Positions 11,851 through 49,910 of a stretch of 64,000 nucleotides of DNA are shown here, one piece after another. Every line of letters starts with the position of its first letter. Position 1 is the first letter of the stretch. The translations under genes and the position numbers were made by a program. The notes below the pieces were generated by a model. It made no database searches. It worked only from the letters and a program-made list of their open reading frames with translations, and had not been told where the DNA came from. Origin of the DNA: an uncultured Prevotella sp. GTDB lineage: Bacteria > Bacteroidota > Bacteroidia > Bacteroidales > Bacteroidaceae. The stretch spans positions 62,001 to 126,000 of the forward strand of contig CAJOEC010000001.1 of the NCBI GenBank assembly GCA_905233425.1. The letters run 5' to 3'.

Positions 11851-11949
11851 TCATTCTCAAACTTTTTCGGATGCAAAATTACGACTTTTTTTTTGAATAA
11901 CCACACTATATGGTGAAAAAGTTCGTCATGCGGTTGAAAGCACGGAACA

Positions 11950-12030
11950 TTCCCCCGGTGGGAACAATATATTCCCACTGGGGGAACAATTTATTCCCAC
12001 CGGGGGAATGATTTGTTCCCACCGGGGGAA
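11950..12030. repeat. Four 15-bp palindromes TTCCCnCnGGGGGAA with exact 22-bp period
   Basis: Copies start at 11950, 11972, 11994, 12016; 7-nt A/T-rich spacers. Confidence 0.95.
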
Positions 12031-12202
12031 TTTTCAACACACTCCGTGATGTCTTTCAGTCGCACAGCACGAAAAAGTTGAAAAAATGGAAGCATACCAA
12101 ACGTTTCATGGAAAATGTTTTGCCGTTTCGCTGTTTTTCCGTAAATTTGCACCCCACAAAGAGCCAGTCCCGCCAATCTTCAATCCTCTCACATTGAACA
12201 AC

Positions 12203-18160: not shown

Positions 18161-19198
18161 ATGACGCTGAGCATCATCATTCCTGTCTACAACGTAGAGA
18201 AATACATACGTCCCTGCCTGGAGAGCGTCTTCAGGCAGGGACTTGACGACAACGATTTCGAGGTCATCGTGGTGAACGACGGCACGCCCGACCATAGTAT
18301 GGAGATTGTCGCCTCTTTCGCCGAGCTTCATCACAACGTCAATATCGTTGAGCAGTCAAACCAGGGACTCTCGGCAGCAAGAAACACCGGGCTGGACAAT
18401 GCCAAGGGAGATTACATATTCTTCCTTGACAGCGACGACATTCTAATTCCAGACACCCTGCCCTTGCTGTTGAAAGAGGCTGAAAGCCATAATACCGACA
18501 TGGCTGTGGCCGACTTTGTGAAAATGGACGATGATGCCATAGAGGCTACCCAACTCTCAACACTCAACACTCAACACTCAACGCTCAACGCTCAACTCTC
18601 AACACTCAACACTCAACACTCAACGCCCAGCGCTCAATGCCCAACGCCAAAAATATTGAGCGGCACCGAGATGTTCCTTGGCAAGTTGTTCAATCCTCGT
18701 GCGTGTTACGTGTGGCACACGCTCTACAAGCACACGTTTCTTCTTCAGAACGGCCTTCGCTTCATACCCGGCATCTATTTCGAGGACGTTCCTTTCACCA
18801 CCAACTGTTATCTCAAGGCCGACAGGTGTTTGTTTACAAAATTGCCTATTTACATCTATCGCCAGAGGAAGGACTCCATTGTCTCGTCGATTAACATGAG
18901 AAAGGTGACCGACATGAACACGGTCATAGCACACCTGTGGCAGATGAAGTCCGACCTTTGCACCACGCCTGAACTGCGCCAGCGCATGGACGAAACAATA
19001 TTCGCCACATTCTCAATTGCTTCGTGGTATGTCGCCAACGACAAGAAACTGTTGGACGACAGGCACACCTTCGTTGCCGACTTGCGCAGCAAGGTGCCGC
19101 AACTTACGTTCAGCGGTGGAGTGAAGCAACGGCTGACATCAGCCTTCTTCAAACTCATGCCCGAAACATATCTGTGGCTGAGGTCGAAGAAACCCTGA
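18161..19198 (+). CDS. Glycosyltransferase family 2, carrying a heptamer-array-encoded insert
   Basis: LSIIIPVYNVEKYIRPCLESVFRQ...FFLDSDD; low-complexity insert QLSTLNTQHSTLNAQ. Confidence 0.88.
   Translation: MTLSIIIPVYNVEKYIRPCLESVFRQGLDDNDFEVIVVNDGTPDHSMEIVASFAELHHNVNIVEQSNQGLSAARNTGLDNAKGDYIFFLDSDDILIPDTLPLLLKEAESHNTDMAVADFVKMDDDAIEATQLSTLNTQHSTLNAQLSTLNTQHSTPSAQCPTPKILSGTEMFLGKLFNPRACYVWHTLYKHTFLLQNGLRFIPGIYFEDVPFTTNCYLKADRCLFTKLPIYIYRQRKDSIVSSINMRKVTDMNTVIAHLWQMKSDLCTTPELRQRMDETIFATFSIASWYVANDKKLLDDRHTFVADLRSKVPQLTFSGGVKQRLTSAFFKLMPETYLWLRSKKP
18551..18648 (+). repeat. (CAACNCT)n heptamer array, 14 units, in GT2 coding sequence
   Basis: CAACTCT CAACACT x3 CAACGCT x2 CAACTCT CAACACT x3 CAACGCC CAGCGCT CAATGCC CAACGCC. 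Confidence 0.95.
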
Positions 19199-27203: not shown

Positions 27204-27345
27204 AGTAGTTTGTTTTTTAGGGTTAAGTTATTAATAATAGGAATATGTACTAATCTACCCGCAAATTTAGCCCTTTTTCTCCACAACGGCACACAACGAG
27301 CCAGTTATTTGTGATAATTTAACGTATTCCCCGAAAGGCCTTCGA

Positions 27346-27406
27346 GTTCGCGCCGGGCGAACTCAGAGTTCGCACGGCGCGAACTGACAGTTCGCCCGGC
27401 GCGAAC
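27346..27406. repeat. Three 17-bp palindromes GTTCGCnCnGGnCGAAC, 22-bp period
   Basis: Copies start at 27346, 27368, 27390. Confidence 0.95.
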
Positions 27407-27425
27407 TCTTAGAGCCTCCGAAGCC

Positions 27426-27486
27426 CGGATCATGGGGACAGGAACATTGCCCCAAGTCTGGGTCAAGTGCCTGTCCCCATGACCCG
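27426..27486. repeat. 61-nt nested hairpin element, copy 1
   Basis: CGGATCATGGGGACAGG...CCTGTCCCCATGACCCG with inner TGGGTCAA arm; near-identical to 36592..36652. Confidence 0.95.
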
Positions 27487-27595
27487 GCAATCCTTAGCTT
27501 TTAACCATTTTTACGGGTTGTGAGGCAGAAAAAGGACGGAAAAGTTTGGAGGTGTGACAAAAAACAGCTACTTTTGCACAGTAATCTATCGAGAT

Positions 27596-29322: not shown

Positions 29323-32157
29323 ATGGTTTATTCAATAGAAAAAGTGGCGACGTTGATAGGCGCCCGCCGCTATGGCAACAGCGACACCACCGTGGGATGG
29401 CTTCTCACCGACAGCCGCTCACTGTGTTTCCCCGAACAGACACTCTTCTTCGCACTCCGCACCAAGCGCAACGACGGCCACCGCTACATCGACGAGCTGT
29501 ACCGCCGTGGTGTGCGCTCATTCGTGGTTGAGGTGGTGCCCGACAACTATCCGAGTGTCTACCCGCAAGCCAATTTCCTGCGCGTGCCCTCATCGATAGC
29601 CGCGCTGCAGCGTCTGGCCGAGCGCCACCGCGACGAGTTCGACATCCCCGTTGTGGGCATCACCGGCTCCAACGGCAAGACGTGGGTGAAAGAATGGCTC
29701 TACCAGATTCTTTCGGGCGTAAACACCCAGCACTCAACACTCAACCCTCAACCCTCAACACTCAACACTCAACCCTCAACCCTCAATGTCACCCGCTCGC
29801 CACGGTCGTACAACTCGCAGATTGGCGTGCCCCTGTCCGTGTGGCTCCTCAACGAGCAGACGCAGGTGGCGCTTTTCGAGGCCGGCATCAGCGAGCCTGG
29901 CGAAATGCTTCCACTTAGCGACATCATTCAGCCTACCATCGGCGTGTTCACATCGTTGGGGACGGCACATCAGGAGAATTTCCGCACTATGGAGGAGAAA
30001 TGCCTTGAGAAGATGCAGCTCTTCCACGGCACCAAGGCCATTGTCTATCCCACCGACGACGACACCGTCTCTCGCTGCATACGCCGCAGCGGATACCAGG
30101 GAGAGCGAATAGGATGGAGCCGATACGACAGCAAAGCCCCGTTCTTCGTGGAAAGCATCTCAACCCCCACCCCCTCAACACTCAACACTCAAATCACATA
30201 TATATATAAAGGAACGCGAGGGACCTACTCCATCCCCTTCGACGACGAGGCTTCCATAGAGAACAGCATCACCTGTGCCGCCACGGCCCTCATTCTCGGC
30301 ATCGACGCGCAACAGCTCGCAGCTGCCATGGAGGCCCTGGAGCCGATAGCCATGCGCTTGGAGGTGAAGCAAGGGCAGCGGGGGCTGACACTCATCAACG
30401 ACTCGTACAACAACGACCTGCAGTCGCTCGACATCGCCCTTGACATCATGGCACGAAGGGGGGGCAAAAAGACTCTGATCCTCAGCGACATCTACCAGAG
30501 CGGGGAACAGCCGCAGGAACTCTACCGGCAGGTGGCCGACCTCGTGGCAAAGCGTGGAGTGGAAAAGCTCATCGGCATAGGCCCGGAAATATCGGCACAT
30601 GCCGACATCTTCAACTCACAACTCTCAACGCTCAACTCTCAACACTCAACTCTCAACACTCAACACTCAACTCTCAACACTCAACTCTCAACGCTCAACA
30701 CTCAACTCACATGGTTCTTCCCCAATGTGACGCTGTTCATGCAGAGCGACATATTCCACCAGCTGCGCGACGAGGTGGTGCTGCTCAAGGGAGCACGCCG
30801 CTTCGGCTTCGAGCGCATCTGCGAGGAGCTGGAGCAGAAAGTCCATGAGACAATCCTCGAGGTCGACCTCAACGCTGTGGTCGCCAACCTGAACCACTAC
30901 CGCTCGCTGCTGCGACCAGAGACGAAGATGGTGTGCATGATAAAGGCCGACGCCTACGGTGCCGGAGCCATCGAGATAGCCAAGACTCTGCAGGAGCACC
31001 GCGTGGACTACCTTGCCGTGGCCGTCGCCGACGAGGGCGTGGAGCTGCGCAAGGCAGGCATCACGCAGAACATCATCGTCATGAACCCCGAAATGTCGTC
31101 GTTCAAGACGCTCTTCGACTACGGTCTGGAACCGGAGGTCTACAGTTTCCGACTGATGGACGCTCTCATAAAGGCAGCACGCTCGCAGGGCATCACCGGC
31201 TGGCCTGTGCACATCAAGCTCGACACCGGGATGCACAGACTGGGGTTCAATGTTCAGAGTTCAGAGTTTAGCGACAATCCTTCAGCAAACAATAGTCACT
31301 CAACCCTCAACCCTGAACTCTCAACACTCAACCCTGAACTCTCAACACTCAACCCTGAACTCTCAACACTCAACCCTGAACTCTCAACCCTCAACCCTGA
31401 ACTCTCAACCCTCATCTCCCGTCTCACCCACCAGCAGGCCATCATCCCGCGCTCGGTGTTCACCCATTTCGTGGGCAGCGACAGCACCGACTTCGACGCT
31501 TTCTCAGCCCGCCAGTTCCAGCTCTTCGACGAGGCCAGCCGAAAGCTGCAGGCCGCCTTCAGCCACAAAATCCTGCGCCACATCGACAACTCCGCCGGCA
31601 TAGAGCACTTCCCCGAGCGACAGCTCGACATGTGCCGATTAGGCATCGGCCTCTACGGCATTCCCGCTTCATCCCCCAACGCCGCCACCCCCGTAGGGAC
31701 GCGACGTGTCGCGTCCGCCACCGCCACCGTGCCCAGCGCGTTAGCGTCGGGTCGTTCCAGCCTCCTCACCCCCGTCTCTTCCCTTTTCACCACCATCCTC
31801 CAGCTCCGCCATGTCCCCAAGGAGGACACCGTTGGCTACAGCAGGAAGGGCACCCTTACCCGCGACAGCATCATCGCCGCCATCCCCATAGGCTATGCCG
31901 ACGGCCTGGACCGCCGGTTGGGCAACCGCAAGGGCTACTGCTTGGTGAACGGCCAGCGGGCGGAGTACGTAGGCAACATTTGCATGGACGTGGCTCTCGT
32001 AGACGTCACCGACATCCCGTGCCAGGAAGGCGACCGCGTGGAGATCTTCGGCCGCAACCTGCCCGTCACCGTCCTCAGCGATGCCATGCAGACCATCCCC
32101 TACGAGGTGCTCACCTCCGTCTCCAACCGGGTGAAACGAATCTATTTCCAAGACTAA
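29323..32157 (+). CDS. murF-alr: Bifunctional UDP-MurNAc-tripeptide:D-Ala-D-Ala ligase / alanine racemase, with several repeat-derived inserts
   Basis: MurF: GITGSNGKTWVKEWLYQIL, LINDSYNNDLQSLD; Alr: LEVDLNAVVANLNHYRSLLRPETKMVCMIKADAYGAG, KLDTGMHRLGF, YSRKGTL. Confidence 0.93.
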   Translation: MVYSIEKVATLIGARRYGNSDTTVGWLLTDSRSLCFPEQTLFFALRTKRNDGHRYIDELYRRGVRSFVVEVVPDNYPSVYPQANFLRVPSSIAALQRLAERHRDEFDIPVVGITGSNGKTWVKEWLYQILSGVNTQHSTLNPQPSTLNTQPSTLNVTRSPRSYNSQIGVPLSVWLLNEQTQVALFEAGISEPGEMLPLSDIIQPTIGVFTSLGTAHQENFRTMEEKCLEKMQLFHGTKAIVYPTDDDTVSRCIRRSGYQGERIGWSRYDSKAPFFVESISTPTPSTLNTQITYIYKGTRGTYSIPFDDEASIENSITCAATALILGIDAQQLAAAMEALEPIAMRLEVKQGQRGLTLINDSYNNDLQSLDIALDIMARRGGKKTLILSDIYQSGEQPQELYRQVADLVAKRGVEKLIGIGPEISAHADIFNSQLSTLNSQHSTLNTQHSTLNTQLSTLNTQLTWFFPNVTLFMQSDIFHQLRDEVVLLKGARRFGFERICEELEQKVHETILEVDLNAVVANLNHYRSLLRPETKMVCMIKADAYGAGAIEIAKTLQEHRVDYLAVAVADEGVELRKAGITQNIIVMNPEMSSFKTLFDYGLEPEVYSFRLMDALIKAARSQGITGWPVHIKLDTGMHRLGFNVQSSEFSDNPSANNSHSTLNPELSTLNPELSTLNPELSTLNPELSTLNPELSTLISRLTHQQAIIPRSVFTHFVGSDSTDFDAFSARQFQLFDEASRKLQAAFSHKILRHIDNSAGIEHFPERQLDMCRLGIGLYGIPASSPNAATPVGTRRVASATATVPSALASGRSSLLTPVSSLFTTILQLRHVPKEDTVGYSRKGTLTRDSIIAAIPIGYADGLDRRLGNRKGYCLVNGQRAEYVGNICMDVALVDVTDIPCQEGDRVEIFGRNLPVTVLSDAMQTIPYEVLTSVSNRVKRIYFQD
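29728..29790 (+). repeat. Heptamer array in murF part
   Basis: CAGCACT CAACACT CAACCCT x2 CAACACT x2 CAACCCT x2 CAATGTC. Confidence 0.9.
30161..30196 (+). repeat. Short degenerate heptamer array in murF part
   Basis: CAACCCCCACCCCCT CAACACT CAACACT CAAATCA. Confidence 0.7.
30612..30709 (+). repeat. Heptamer array, 14 units, at MurF/Alr junction
   Basis: CAACTCA CAACTCT CAACGCT CAACTCT CAACACT CAACTCT CAACACT x2 CAACTCT CAACACT CAACTCT CAACGCT CAACACT CAACTCA. Confidence 0.95.
31301..31419 (+). repeat. Heptamer array with 21-bp higher-order unit in alr part
   Basis: (CAACACT CAACCCT GAACTCT) repeated; encodes STLNPEL repeats. Confidence 0.95.
31693..31717 (+). repeat. GTAG-headed palindrome (REP-like) inside alr coding sequence
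   Basis: GTAGGGACGCGACGTGTCGCGTCCG, read as VGTRRVAS. Confidence 0.85.
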
Positions 32158-36579: not shown

Positions 36580-36591
36580 TGAACTTTAACG

Positions 36592-36652
36592 CGGGTCATG
36601 GGGACAGGAACATTGACCCAAGTCTGGGTCAAGTGCCTGTCCCCATGACCCG
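36592..36652. repeat. 61-nt nested hairpin element, copy 2
   Basis: CGGGTCATGGGGACAGG (17 nt) perfectly complementary to CCTGTCCCCATGACCCG; inner TTGACCC/GGGTCAA. Confidence 0.97.
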
Positions 36653-36706
36653 CCCATGCCCCGCGCTGGAGGCCGCTGAAATTTTAATATTACGAATTGC
36701 AGAGAA

Positions 36707-37664: not shown

Positions 37665-38834
37665 TTAGAGAGTGCTCTTGTACCACTCGAAGAGCCGGCC
37701 TACGCCCTCTTCCAGCTCCACTTTGTGCGTCCATCCCAGACTGTGCAGCTTCTCCACGTCAATGAGCTTGCGCATGGTGCCATCGGGCTTCGTGGCGTCG
37801 AATTCTATTGTCCCCTCGAAACCAGTTGCCTTTGCCACTAATTGCGACAGTTCGCGGATGGTCAGTTCCTTGCCAGTGCCAACGTTGATGTGGCAGTTGC
37901 GTATCTCTCCCAGCTTGGGCAGTGCACCGCCACGACCCTCCGAGTGGTTGCGGTCGACGGCCCCGTCGGTGGAGGCTCCGTAGTGTACTGAAGAATATTT
38001 CTCTATGCCGATGATGTCCTTGAAGTCGACATTGAGCAGCACGTGTACCGAGGCATCGGCCATGTCCTCGCTCCACAAGAACTCGCGCAGCGGAGTGCCA
38101 GTGCCCCAGAGCACCACCTTATTATTATATATGCCGTATTTCCCCAGCACGTCAATAATGTCGCTGCTCTGCGACGACCCGTCCACGCCCTCCACCGGCC
38201 GTTTGTTGAGGTCGGTGCGTATGGTGTCCCACTGCCCTTCGTGCAGCAGACGCGAGAGGTAGACCTTGCGCATCATGGCGGGCATGACATGTGAGTTCTC
38301 CAGATGGAAGTTGTCGCCTGGGCCGTAGAGGTTGGTGGGCATGACGGCGATATAGTTGGTGCCGTACTGCAGGTTATACGACTCGCACATCTTCAGTCCG
38401 GCAATCTTTGCGATGGCATACTCCTCGTTGGTGTATTCCAGTGGAGATGTCAGCAGACAGTCCTCCTTCATGGGCTGTGGCGCGTTCTTGGGATAAATGC
38501 ATGTGCTTCCGAGGAAGAGCAGCTTCTTCACCCCGTGGCGGTAGCTCTCGCCAATGACGTTGCACTGCATGAGCATGTTCTGCATGATAAAGTCGGCGCG
38601 GTAGAGCGAGTTGGCCATGATGCCGCCCACGAAAGCCGCTGCCAGCACCACGCCGTCGGGGCGTTCCTGGTCGAAAAAGTCCTTCACTGCCTGCTGGTTC
38701 GTCAGGTCGAGTTCACTGTGCGTGCGCCCCACGAGGTTCGTGTAGCCACGCATCTTCAGGTTGTTCCATATTGCCGAGCCCACGAGTCCGCGGTGTCCGG
38801 CAACGTAAATTTTCGAGTCTTTGCTTAGTGTCAT
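37665..38834 (-). CDS. fcl: GDP-L-fucose synthase
   Basis: KIYVAGHRGLVGSAIWNNLK...MPTNLYGPGDNFHLENSHVMPA; start placed at internal ATG 38834. Confidence 0.92.
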   Translation of the reverse strand: MTLSKDSKIYVAGHRGLVGSAIWNNLKMRGYTNLVGRTHSELDLTNQQAVKDFFDQERPDGVVLAAAFVGGIMANSLYRADFIMQNMLMQCNVIGESYRHGVKKLLFLGSTCIYPKNAPQPMKEDCLLTSPLEYTNEEYAIAKIAGLKMCESYNLQYGTNYIAVMPTNLYGPGDNFHLENSHVMPAMMRKVYLSRLLHEGQWDTIRTDLNKRPVEGVDGSSQSSDIIDVLGKYGIYNNKVVLWGTGTPLREFLWSEDMADASVHVLLNVDFKDIIGIEKYSSVHYGASTDGAVDRNHSEGRGGALPKLGEIRNCHINVGTGKELTIRELSQLVAKATGFEGTIEFDATKPDGTMRKLIDVEKLHSLGWTHKVELEEGVGRLFEWYKSTL

Positions 38835-38936
38835 AATTGTTTGTTCTGCTTGTACGCTGCAAAAATACAGCTTTTTCCCGAAACAGCCAAACATTTGCAG
38901 GAAAAACTACAGACAAGCCCCCGAAAGACCGAAAAA

Positions 38937-39019
38937 GTTCGCGCCGGGCGAACTCGGTGTTCGCACGGCGCGAACTGACAGTCCGCCCAGCGCGAACTGG
39001 AAGTCCGCGCCGGGCGGAC
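38937..39019. repeat. Four 17-bp palindromes GTTCGC/GTCCGC family, 22-bp period
   Basis: Copies start at 38937, 38959, 38981, 39003. Confidence 0.95.
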
Positions 39020-39258
39020 TTTTTGGCATGTCGGAGACGATTTTGACAGAGACACGGGCAGAGGCTGACATTGCCCCTGGCTGGACATCGGGCTGGCCCG
39101 TGGCCTACCCCTACAGAAAACCAAGGTGCAAAAATAATAAAAAAGCGATACGGCCAAAGGTTTTCGGGAAAACTTTGGAAAACTTTTGGCTGTTCGGCGG
39201 AAAATGCTTAATTTTGCAGCTGTATTCAATTTAAAATCGTAAATACAAAGATTGGTAT

Positions 39259-40899
39259 ATGGCAGAGAAGAGGGGATATGGCGTAGGTCTGCAGACATTT
39301 GCAGACATGATAAAGCGAAAGGCAGTCTATGTAGACAAGACAGCGTTTGTGTATAAGATGGCACATAGTACGGGTAAGAACTTCTTCCTGAGCCGTCCCC
39401 GGCGGTTTGGCAAGTCGTTGCTGGTGACCACGCTGCAGGCTTATTTCGAGGGGCGCAGGGAGCTATTCAAGGGGCTGGCAATTGAGAAGTTGGAGACGGA
39501 GTGGACGCAGTACCCCGTGATTCACCTTGATCTGTCGAATGGTAAGTACTACGAGGAGACAAGCGTGGACAAGATTTGTGGCGGATTGTTAAAGTGGTAT
39601 GAGAGGGATTACAGCCTTCATCCGAAAGAAGATGACAGTCTGAGTGACCGTTTTACCGCCATCATCAAGGCTGCATACGAAAAGACACAGCGTGAGGTGG
39701 TGATTCTCATCGACGAGTACGACGCGCCGATGCTCGACAGCATCCACGACCCGAAGCTGCAAGACCACCTGCGACAACGCGTCCGCGACCTGTTCTCGCC
39801 GCTGAAGGCACAGGAGCAGTACCTGAAGTTCGTGTTCCTCACAGGTATCTCAAAGTTCTCGCAACTGAGCGTGTTCAGTGAGCTGAACAACCTGAACATC
39901 CTGACCTTCGACCCGGAGTATGAGGGTGTCTGCGGCATCACCGAGGAGGAACTCTTCACACAGCTGAAGCCCGACATCGAGTGGCTGACGGAGGCCATGA
40001 GCCGCCGTGTACACCGCACCTTTACCTACGAAGACACGGTAGCCAAGCTGAAGCACATGTACGACGGCTATCATTTCACCGACATGATGACCGATATCTA
40101 CAACCCGTGGAGCCTGATTTATTCATTTGAGAAAGGCTGGATAGACAACTACTGGTTCGGCACCGGCACACCCTCGTCGCTCATCAATCTGCTTCGCGTG
40201 AAACAGCTCGTCATACCCGACCTTGAAGGCTTTGAGGCCGACAAGGAGACTTTCGACGCACCCACGGAACGCATTTCCGACCCTGTGCCAGTGCTTTTCC
40301 AGAGCGGCTACCTCACCATCAAGGGCTATGACTACGAGGACAACACCTTCACGCTCGGTTTCCCCAATGAGGAGGTTTATCGGGGCTTTTCCAAGTCGCT
40401 CTACAATTATTATTGCGAAGAATACGTCGGCAGCCGTAATCAGATGAACAACGTATTCCGCGACCTGCGCCGAAAGAGAATCACCTTTGAGCAGTTCCTT
40501 GAGAGTGTGCGGAAATGGTATGCAGGAATCCCTTATTCAATTACTGACAAGAACCAGAACGAGCAGTTCTACCAGGCACTGTTCTATTCGCTGATGGTCG
40601 GAGTGGGTGCTGATGTCAGTGCTGAGGAGCAGACCAGCGACGGGCGTATGGACATCGCATTGAAACTGGCCGATGCCATCTACATTCTGGAGTTCAAGTA
40701 TGGCAAGACCGCCGTAGGGGCAGACCCCGTGCCAGCCCGCACAGGCCCCGTGCCAGCCCTCAAAGCCACGGAGCAGATCATCGCAAAGGACTATGCCGTG
40801 CGCTTCGCCGCCGACGCCCGCCCCGTCTGGGCGGTGGGTCTGAACATCAGCGCGGACTGTCGCACCATCGAGAGCTTCGAAGTGGTGAAAGTGAAATAA
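39259..40899 (+). CDS. AAA-ATPase-like / PD-(D/E)XK nuclease superfamily protein, second copy of family
   Basis: RRFGKSLLVTTLQAYFEGRRELF, LIDEYDAPM, FKYGKT near C-terminus. Confidence 0.88.
   Translation: MAEKRGYGVGLQTFADMIKRKAVYVDKTAFVYKMAHSTGKNFFLSRPRRFGKSLLVTTLQAYFEGRRELFKGLAIEKLETEWTQYPVIHLDLSNGKYYEETSVDKICGGLLKWYERDYSLHPKEDDSLSDRFTAIIKAAYEKTQREVVILIDEYDAPMLDSIHDPKLQDHLRQRVRDLFSPLKAQEQYLKFVFLTGISKFSQLSVFSELNNLNILTFDPEYEGVCGITEEELFTQLKPDIEWLTEAMSRRVHRTFTYEDTVAKLKHMYDGYHFTDMMTDIYNPWSLIYSFEKGWIDNYWFGTGTPSSLINLLRVKQLVIPDLEGFEADKETFDAPTERISDPVPVLFQSGYLTIKGYDYEDNTFTLGFPNEEVYRGFSKSLYNYYCEEYVGSRNQMNNVFRDLRRKRITFEQFLESVRKWYAGIPYSITDKNQNEQFYQALFYSLMVGVGADVSAEEQTSDGRMDIALKLADAIYILEFKYGKTAVGADPVPARTGPVPALKATEQIIAKDYAVRFAADARPVWAVGLNISADCRTIESFEVVKVK
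40714..40738 (+). repeat. GTAG-headed palindrome inside PD-(D/E)XK coding sequence
   Basis: GTAGGGGCAGACCCCGTGCCAGCCC, followed by a partial second copy to about 40760. Confidence 0.8.
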
Positions 40900-42132: not shown

Positions 42133-42831
42133 ATGAAGAAGCATATCCCAAATATGATAACTTGTTGCAACCTCATTTCCGGTTGCATTGCCACGTGGTT
42201 TGCCTTCGACGGCCGCTACCATGAGGCACTGTTGTTTATCATCATCGGAGCGGTGTTCGACTTCTTCGACGGCATGACGGCGCGCCTGCTCCACGTGTCG
42301 TCGCCCATCGGCAAGGAGCTTGACTCGCTGGCCGACGTCATCACATTCGGCTTCGCCCCCTCGGCCATGGTGTTCAGTTTCCTTTGCTCGTTCCATATCC
42401 ACGTGTTTGTTGTACCGTTCCTGGCTTTTGTCATGGCAGCCTTCTCGGCACTACGCTTGGCAAAGTTCAATCTCGACGAGCGTCAGGCCTTGGGGTTCAT
42501 CGGACTGCCAACGCCGGCAAACGCCCTGTTCTGGGGGGCGCTGATAACAGGTGTGAACTTTCAGAGGTTTTTCGAGCCATACCAGCTTCCCACATATTAT
42601 ATATATATAGCACTGGTGCTGCTGGCTCTGAGCTGCTGGCTATTAGTGAGCGAAATACCGATGTTCGCGCTGAAGTTCAAGACATGGGGCTGGCGCGGCA
42701 ACGAGGTGAAATACATATTCCTGATCACTTGTATTCCGCTACTGCTCCTGCTGGGCACCATGGGTCTGGCGGCCATCATAGCCTGGTACGTGGTGCTGTC
42801 GGTGTTTACAGTTAAAAAAGCTGAGAGTTGA
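42133..42831 (+). CDS. pssA: CDP-diacylglycerol--serine O-phosphatidyltransferase
   Basis: DFFDGMTARLLHVSSPIGKELDSLADVITFGFAP CDP-alcohol phosphatidyltransferase motif. Confidence 0.92.
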   Translation: MKKHIPNMITCCNLISGCIATWFAFDGRYHEALLFIIIGAVFDFFDGMTARLLHVSSPIGKELDSLADVITFGFAPSAMVFSFLCSFHIHVFVVPFLAFVMAAFSALRLAKFNLDERQALGFIGLPTPANALFWGALITGVNFQRFFEPYQLPTYYIYIALVLLALSCWLLVSEIPMFALKFKTWGWRGNEVKYIFLITCIPLLLLLGTMGLAAIIAWYVVLSVFTVKKAES

Positions 42832-42892
42832 GTGTTGAGAGTTGAGTGTTGAGTGTTGAGTGTTGAGTGTTGAGTGTTGAGAGTTAAGAGTT
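42823..42892 (-). repeat. Heptamer array (GAGNGTT)n, 10 units, filling pssA/DUF4834 intergenic gap
   Basis: Reverse complement of the CTCAACN family; supplies the pssA stop codon. Confidence 0.95.
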
Positions 42893-42898
42893 AGGCAC

Positions 42899-47056: not shown

Positions 47057-48510
<1,454 letters not shown>

Positions 48511-48581
48511 ACAATAAACACTCAACAGCCACTGTGTCCGAAGCGTTAGCTTCGTGACCACTCAACACTCAACTCTTCATA

Positions 48582-49340: not shown

Positions 49341-49503
49341 GCAACCCGTTGTCCGAGTAGTTGGCATCTATGGTGGCAGCATCGACGGAAAAGGCGGAGC
49401 GAACTGTTAAAGGTTGTTATATCGTGAAAGTTTCCATTGAAATATTTTTTCCGTTGAAAAAAAGTTTATACCTTTGCACCCGCTAAACAGAAAAGTGCTG
49501 ACT

Positions 49504-49577
49504 GGTGCGTTAGTTCAGTAGGTTAGAATGCCTGCCTGTCACGCAGGAGGTCACGAGTTCGAATCTCGTACGCACCG
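49504..49577 (+). tRNA. tRNA-Asp (GTC), copy 1
   Basis: GGTGCGT...CCTGC CTGTCAC GCAGG...GTTCGAATC...ACGCACCG cloverleaf. Confidence 0.95.
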
Positions 49578-49623
49578 CGCAAGGCACGAAGTCTGGGAAG
49601 CTGATAATAGTATAGCATGGTTT

Positions 49624-49697
49624 GGTGCGTTAGTTCAGTAGGTTAGAATGCCTGCCTGTCACGCAGGAGGTCACGAGTTCGAATCTCGTACGCACCG
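49624..49697 (+). tRNA. tRNA-Asp (GTC), copy 2
   Basis: Sequence identical to 49504..49577. Confidence 0.95.
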
Positions 49698-49910
49698 CAA
49701 ACCCAAGTGGAGAGCCAGACATACAAGTGTCTGGCTTTTTTCGTCATAGTACTGCCGGCTCGCTGCCATACTGTCTGCTCATTGTTAAATTTGCAGAAAT
49801 AATTTGTCAGGCTCATAGATTCTTTGTACTTTTGTGGCCGCAAAAAAACAATACACAATAATAATAATATATACACAATAAAACAATAAACAACAAACCA
49901 AAAGGAAACT

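Follow-up and report, generated by a model that had tools for sequence, protein, structure and literature searches.

Dispersed palindromic repeats of bacteria are usually explained by RAYT transposases, and palindromic sites set in a row are familiar from lambda-type phage operators, in which three 17-bp sites follow one another. REPIN and BIME elements, which depend on RAYTs, are short intergenic palindromes with inverted units, high copy number, lineage-specific amplification and a presumed spread in trans (PMC3116915, PMC6006769). The Bacteroidales also harbor BrickBuilt, a non-coding intergenic MITE of Porphyromonas gingivalis that comprises tandem units with a 23-nt period between leader and tail flanks (PMC4596501).

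The palindrome array beside fcl, in the 64,000-nucleotide stretch of DNA analysed here (the window), shares the listed features of REPIN/BIME. It differs in having 3-4 units at a rigid 22-bp step where REPINs are doublets with variable spacing, in arms that vary by family and species, and in lacking both a GT[AG]G foot and an adjacent RAYT. With BrickBuilt it has in common the intergenic, non-coding, tandem and flanked organization, but the 23-nt BrickBuilt consensus AGAYCATARTATCCTCTCRTRTG is a direct repeat of unrelated sequence, whereas the units here are palindromic with a 22-bp step, and the IS5-type terminal inverted repeats of BrickBuilt (GAGACC...) were not recognised. The 17-bp symmetric sites about every two turns are reminiscent of lambda-type operators, and sister arrays are found in viral contigs, some near integrase or lysis genes; unlike those operators, the array has about 100 dispersed chromosomal copies and a linked repressor was not found. 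The 22-bp architecture and the absence of a linked RAYT separate these arrays from REPIN/REP, MITEs and BrickBuilt, their closest kinds. No description of them was found in the literature.

The palindrome array and its surroundings

The array consists of four 17-bp palindromes with an exact 22-bp step, starting at positions 38937, 38959, 38981 and 39003 of the window (Table 1). The sequence-only reading had described it exactly so, with one altered arm in the third palindrome and two in the fourth. Its homology to the 27346 cluster is also confirmed, the first two units and one TGACA spacer being matched, as is its place between fcl (minus, 38834) and the AAA/PD-(D/E)XK gene (plus, 39259), by gene and domain assignment. 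By our own gene calls, three of the five divergent gaps in the window carry a 22-bp palindrome array (11949, 27346 and 38937), in agreement with the earlier count. The array at 11949 belongs to a family distinct from the other two, with RTTCCC arms.

Table 1. Arrays, units and neighboring features of the window.
Feature	Position	Strand	Description
Family-A palindrome-array element, whole	38926..39025	minus (canonical orientation)	A5 / four units at 22 bp / T5
Unit at 38937	38936..38954		GTTCGCGCCGGGCGAAC; A-GTTCGC-GCCGG-GCGAAC-T; canonical unit 4
Unit at 38959	38958..38976		GTTCGCACGGCGCGAAC; GTTCGC-ACGGC-GCGAAC; canonical unit 3
Unit at 38981	38980..38998		GTCCGCCCAGCGCGAAC; GTCCGC-CCAGC-GCGAAC; left arm alone altered; canonical unit 2
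Unit at 39003	39002..39020		GTCCGCGCCGGGCGGAC; GTCCGC-GCCGG-GCGGAC; both arms altered; canonical unit 1
Flank	39021..39066	minus	TTTTGGCATGTCGGAGACGATTTTGACAGAGACACGGGCAGAGGCT; common to many copies
REP-like sequence	39067..39115	minus	GACATTGCCCC...CCCCTACA; adjoins the array; resembles the REP pair at L019
fcl-like NAD-dependent epimerase gene	37665..38834	minus	NAD-epimerase family; starts 38834
AAA-ATPase_like / PDDEXK_9 gene	39259..40899	plus	PF09820 / PF08011
Family-A array	27345..27407		three units at 27346, 27368, 27390; gap between DUF4332 gene and BNR_4 gene
Family-B array	11949..12031		RTTCCC-N5-GGGAAY; four units at 22 bp

An Rfam search of the window left the arrays unmatched; its sole matches were a Bacteroidetes FopS paralogous sRNA (RF04319, 17372-17438) and two tRNAs, an identical gene pair at 49503-49698 with 120 bp between. 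The window contains other repeats as well. A 66-bp inverted-repeat element, CGGGTCATGGGGACAGG...CCTGTCCCCATGACCCG, is found at 27425-27491 and 36591-36657 (94% identical) and also beside other family-A arrays. Heptamer tandem repeats (CTCAACA/CTCAACC) occur at 18510-18680, 29680-31457, 42808-42898 and 47809-48576, in and between genes and with many copies in phase, and dispersed GGGACGCGACGTGTCGCGTCC palindromes at 31688, 47069-47151 and 19206. The REP-like sequence adjoining the array is of the type seen elsewhere in the same genome at L019 (C75:35536), where a RAYT-like Y1 transposase gene stands beside an inverted pair of GTAGGGGCAGGC... REP sequences (2041-2190). Other Y1 transposase genes of this genome (L016, L017 and L018) have differing flanking palindromes, CCAGGGCRNYGCCCTGG and GGGGGTTGTCACCCCC.

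Copy number and architecture of family A

The pattern GTTCGC-N5-GCGAAC occurs 209 times in the array's own genome (4,926,113 bases), against one occurrence of the reversed control, and the wider pattern AGTYCG-N7-CGRACT 373 times against 3. The former was absent from all 23 sampled genomes of the same genus. Family A is thus a lineage-specific amplified repeat, with roughly 100 copies as estimated from the palindrome count. Nineteen further same-genus genomes contained nothing beyond isolated single family-A matches, none forming an array; these genomes include G131, the closest relative found, with 88% identity over the matched fcl stretch. One family-A copy lies on a contig of the Bacteroidales MAG RUG12913, whose 2.2 Mb contain no other array, and is possibly a binning error.

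Where neighboring exact units lie closer than 200 bp, the spacing is 22 bp (52 cases) or 44 bp (5 cases), and no other distance occurs. A typical copy reads A5, unit-TTCCA, unit-TCCCA, unit-TCCGA, unit, T5, and both orientations occur. Among the 49 copies read with at least three units, 36 have four and 11 have three. The four-unit copies have recurring flanks, CTCCGACATGCC on one side and GGGCCTCCCAAGCCC or GGACTTTCGGGGGC on the other, and family-A flanks harbor a weak 22-bp periodicity (lag-22 identity 33%, versus about 26%). Family A has the MITE features of a non-coding element under 1 kb with many copies and shared ends; these ends are of several flank types, and clean ends or duplications were not found. 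Since the gene order around the array differs in relatives, no insertion junction could be read there, and neither an orthologous empty site nor a target-site duplication was obtained. The shared flanks, the roughly 100 copies and the absence from sampled sister species show that the element spread through one lineage as a unit.

Constraint on the palindromic units

Oriented by its core, the motif is AGTYCGC-GCCGK-GCGRACT, 19 bp in length (190 units). Pairwise divergence among the 36 four-unit copies is 3% in the arms, 1.4% at core positions 2 and 4, and 0.9% at the T and A that end the spacers. In the same comparison, freely drifting sites reach 55% at core positions 1, 3 and 5, 31% at arm position 3 and the spacer middles, and 43-55% in the flanks. 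Palindromes kept near letter-perfect amid drifting surroundings are probably still read by a putative protein. Gene conversion among copies is the main alternative to binding in place as the source of this low divergence, and would then have to spare the spacer middles.

The 36 copies provide 144 units for an analysis of the arms. Ten of the twelve arm positions are 98% conserved, and arm position 3 alone varies much, with the pairs T-A (74 units), T.G (37), C-G (22) and C.A (11), about one third of the units being half-changed. The GTTCGC and GTCCGC sides are combined nearly independently within units (permutation p = 0.14; Mantel-Haenszel odds ratio 2.0). The paired change in the fourth unit (at 39003), read earlier as compensatory, is thus one of the ordinary states of a degenerate Y/R position, and the arms do not covary between copies. 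Covariation clearly above column shuffles was likewise absent from the 36 copies for four short hairpins, for two long ones (minimum-energy fold) and for one long hairpin. In family B, one-sided changes are frequent at the outer arm position too.

The C and G at positions ±1 are fixed, where a hairpin loop would leave both unpaired, and one-sided transitions are tolerated at ±6 (arm position 3). Together these argue for a symmetric protein that reads duplex DNA and not a stem, and the unbroken two-turn (22-bp) step suggests binding side by side. The dimeric binder proposed in the sequence-only reading is consistent with this, as the duplex motif resembles, in its sequence pattern, the site of a dimeric protein.

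Inversion of the cores

The four common cores are two sequences, each found in both orientations: GCCGG (29) and CCGGC (29), GCCGT (28) and ACGGC (25). In copies differing at no more than 2 of 73 other sites, 25 of the 72 unit comparisons are core inversions (with 0-2 substitutions), 21 are single substitutions and 2 double substitutions; many of the 73 sites are constrained, so near-identity over them is a weaker mark of recent copying. The copies L155 and L158, for instance, agree at all 73 sites outside the cores, and for unit 3 one copy has GTTCGC-GCCGT-GCGGAC, the other GTTCGC-ACGGC-GCGGAC. As only the orientation of the core differs, it was inverted while the asymmetric arms were kept. 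In plastid genomes, hairpin loops are known to invert. The palindromes may sometimes extrude as hairpins, or cores may be exchanged by template switching, which would produce core inversions between copies; a plastid-like template-switch route is what we infer here.

Sister families and viral contigs

A sister family B, RTTCCC-N5-GGGAAY, has 94 occurrences in the own genome with a restricted-core pattern and is found in about 20 of 150 same-genus genomes or species. Its arrays mostly comprise 3-6 units with a 22-bp step and species-specific cores. A third arm type, AGTTCG-N7-CGAACT, forms two arrays with a 22-bp step in another Bacteroidales genome (G167; L062, 6360-6425). AGTTCGATATAA is present both in the first unit at L062 and in the terminal repeat printed for P. 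gingivalis MITE239 in PMC4596501. In most pairs of sister copies the homologous stretch spans 70-110 bp, that is the array and little else. In two species, G018 (L146) and G151 (L219), an orthologous array occupies the same place next to shared sequence; all 36 arm bases are the same there, and the cores and one spacer differ.

The strict family-A pattern had no match in viral contigs, and the 42 matches of a loose 15-base pattern are about the chance expectation; family A was thus rejected as a viral repeat. The strict family-B pattern matches 17 viral contigs; of these, L245 represents a different kind of repeat, and L249, from a GC-rich contig, is doubtful. Several groups of viral contigs have the array either 45-60 bp ahead of a small membrane-protein gene or within that gene in frame, and one group has it close to genes for integrase and endolysin. 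The viral loci L246, L248, L252, L254 and L256 carry a three-unit array of 66 bp (22 codons) in frame within the small gene MKQAIQLEIPFDYSQ...

Position relative to genes

Arrays of both families were surveyed in 1.15 Mb of the own genome, where a three-periodic Markov model supplied the gene calls. The 35 arrays comprise 13 in divergent, 15 in tandem and 7 in convergent gaps, versus 83, 248 and 36 gaps of at least 100 bp (chi-square p 0.004; divergent versus rest p 0.053). Tandem gaps are depleted, and divergent and convergent gaps mildly enriched, as expected of an insertion tolerated outside operons. The distance from array to start codon is below 98 bp in 1 case of 41, whereas a gene end can be as near as 4 bp. 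Given this spread and the avoidance of about 100 bp before start codons, no divergent-only rule applies: the restriction to divergent gaps noted earlier holds inside the window and fails in the genome, where 22 of the 35 arrays are tandem or convergent. A positional bias to divergent regions was not borne out by ten related species either, as their sister arrays are mostly tandem (15) or convergent (5), with 3 divergent and 3 overlapping called genes. One window in which three of five divergent gaps carry an array does not establish a rule, nor does a paired arm change in one copy establish covariation. The two outcomes that the sequence-only reading had named as speaking against it, arms that do not covary and no divergent bias, are thus largely what was found, across copies and related species rather than strains.

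Genes adjoining the arrays are functionally unrelated to one another in the own genome and in relatives. In four relatives, no array was found upstream of the single conserved flanking gene. A DUF6078 gene lies near several sister arrays, but was rejected as an array partner since it stands beside only about 4 of 26 arrays.

Discussion

The reading that we prefer, and give about an even chance on the strength of the sequence patterns, is that the array is one copy of a non-coding, REPIN/MITE-like dispersed repeat and that a putative dimeric protein occupies its units side by side. The element body is usually four 19-bp palindromes, AGTYCGC-GCCGK-GCGRACT with the core either way round, spaced by 22 bp or two helical turns and ended by A5 and T5. 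Its units are conserved as double-stranded DNA words. A putative two-fold symmetric protein may sit on neighboring units along one face of the helix, and this protein would most likely execute or control the spread of the element, or its upkeep. Weighing against this reading are the negative outcomes for a linked transposase or recombinase (below) and for a target-site duplication or clean empty site, and gene conversion as another possible source of the low unit divergence.

A symmetric, conserved duplex motif with two-turn phasing is also what operator arrays would present, with a dimeric transcription regulator on 3-4 phased sites, mainly at divergent promoters, controlling the flanking genes. 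Such a role agrees with the share of arrays found in divergent gaps (13 of 35; p about 0.05 compared with the other gaps) and with several viral contigs in which a small membrane-protein gene begins about 45-60 bp downstream of an array. This reading is rather unlikely, as it fits the positions of the arrays poorly: 22 of 35 are in tandem or convergent gaps, a start codon is closer than 98 bp just once in 41 while gene ends come as near as 4 bp, the neighboring genes are functionally unrelated, the conserved flanking gene has no array upstream in four relatives, and the copies share flanks in the fashion of a mobile unit. Somewhat less probable still is an RNA device, in which transcribed tandem hairpins would serve as insulators, as mRNA stabilisers or as terminators in both directions. 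The very high fold stability of either strand (z -7.1 and -9.3), the A5 before and T5 after the array, which give a terminator-like stem and T run at 39003, and the excess of T.G over C.A half-changes on the canonical strand (37 versus 11) are in its favor, but neither the four short nor the two long nor the one long hairpin shows covariation, and the C and G at ±1 are fixed within what would be the loop. Moreover, no gene ends in the divergent gaps that contain 13 of the 35 arrays, a regular T run is missing from sister arrays, and Rfam gave no match to the arrays.

The arrays being intergenic, palindromic, of high copy number, a REP/REPIN feature, and lineage-specific, they might form an ordinary REP/REPIN family of a RAYT (TnpA-REP) transposase. 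The own genome has four Y1_Tnp genes, the RAYT-associated REP of the L019 type adjoins the window array and is no more than 250 bp away from 16 of the 49 arrays (about a third of family-A copies), and three-unit arrays lean to dyad symmetry (p 0.02-0.03). However, the fetched flanks of 18 Y1_Tnp genes from 9 genomes contain other palindromes and no array, which leaves the arrays without a linked transposase or recombinase there, and two genomes, G051 and G020, have arrays and no Y1_Tnp; a RAYT is therefore improbable. The units also lack the GT[AG]G tetranucleotide at their foot, being bounded by A5, T5 or TNNNA spacers. As REPs of Bacteroidetes subclass 2.6 are likewise without it (PMC6006769), this absence alone is not decisive. 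We attach the same low probability to chromosome-organising sites, bound genome-wide by a nucleoid protein, gyrase or a condensin-type complex. Roughly 100 intergenic arrays of strongly conserved duplex units with no link to promoters would suit them, but for a core chromosome function it would be odd that the sister species sampled have no family A and that about 130 of the 150 same-genus genomes have no family B.

The preferred reading, a dispersed repeat with units bound by a putative dimeric protein, may extend beyond family A. More tentatively, and with a clearly smaller probability, we suggest an undescribed class of Bacteroidales elements, consisting of mobile arrays of 3-4 palindromic protein-binding sites with a two-turn step, with GTYCGC, RTTCCC or AGTTCG arms, and common to chromosomes and viruses. 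In this class, a putative DNA-binding or recombinase protein would keep hundreds of sites intact and often invert their 5-bp cores. Family A has the life style of a RAYT repeat with no sign of a RAYT, and its rigid 22-bp design recurs with other arms across the genus, as well as in viral contigs and one further Bacteroidales genome. The division of each unit into arms and core offers a direct test of specificity. If the arrays are read by a dedicated protein, this would be a new site-specific system, and its natural targets would number in the hundreds.
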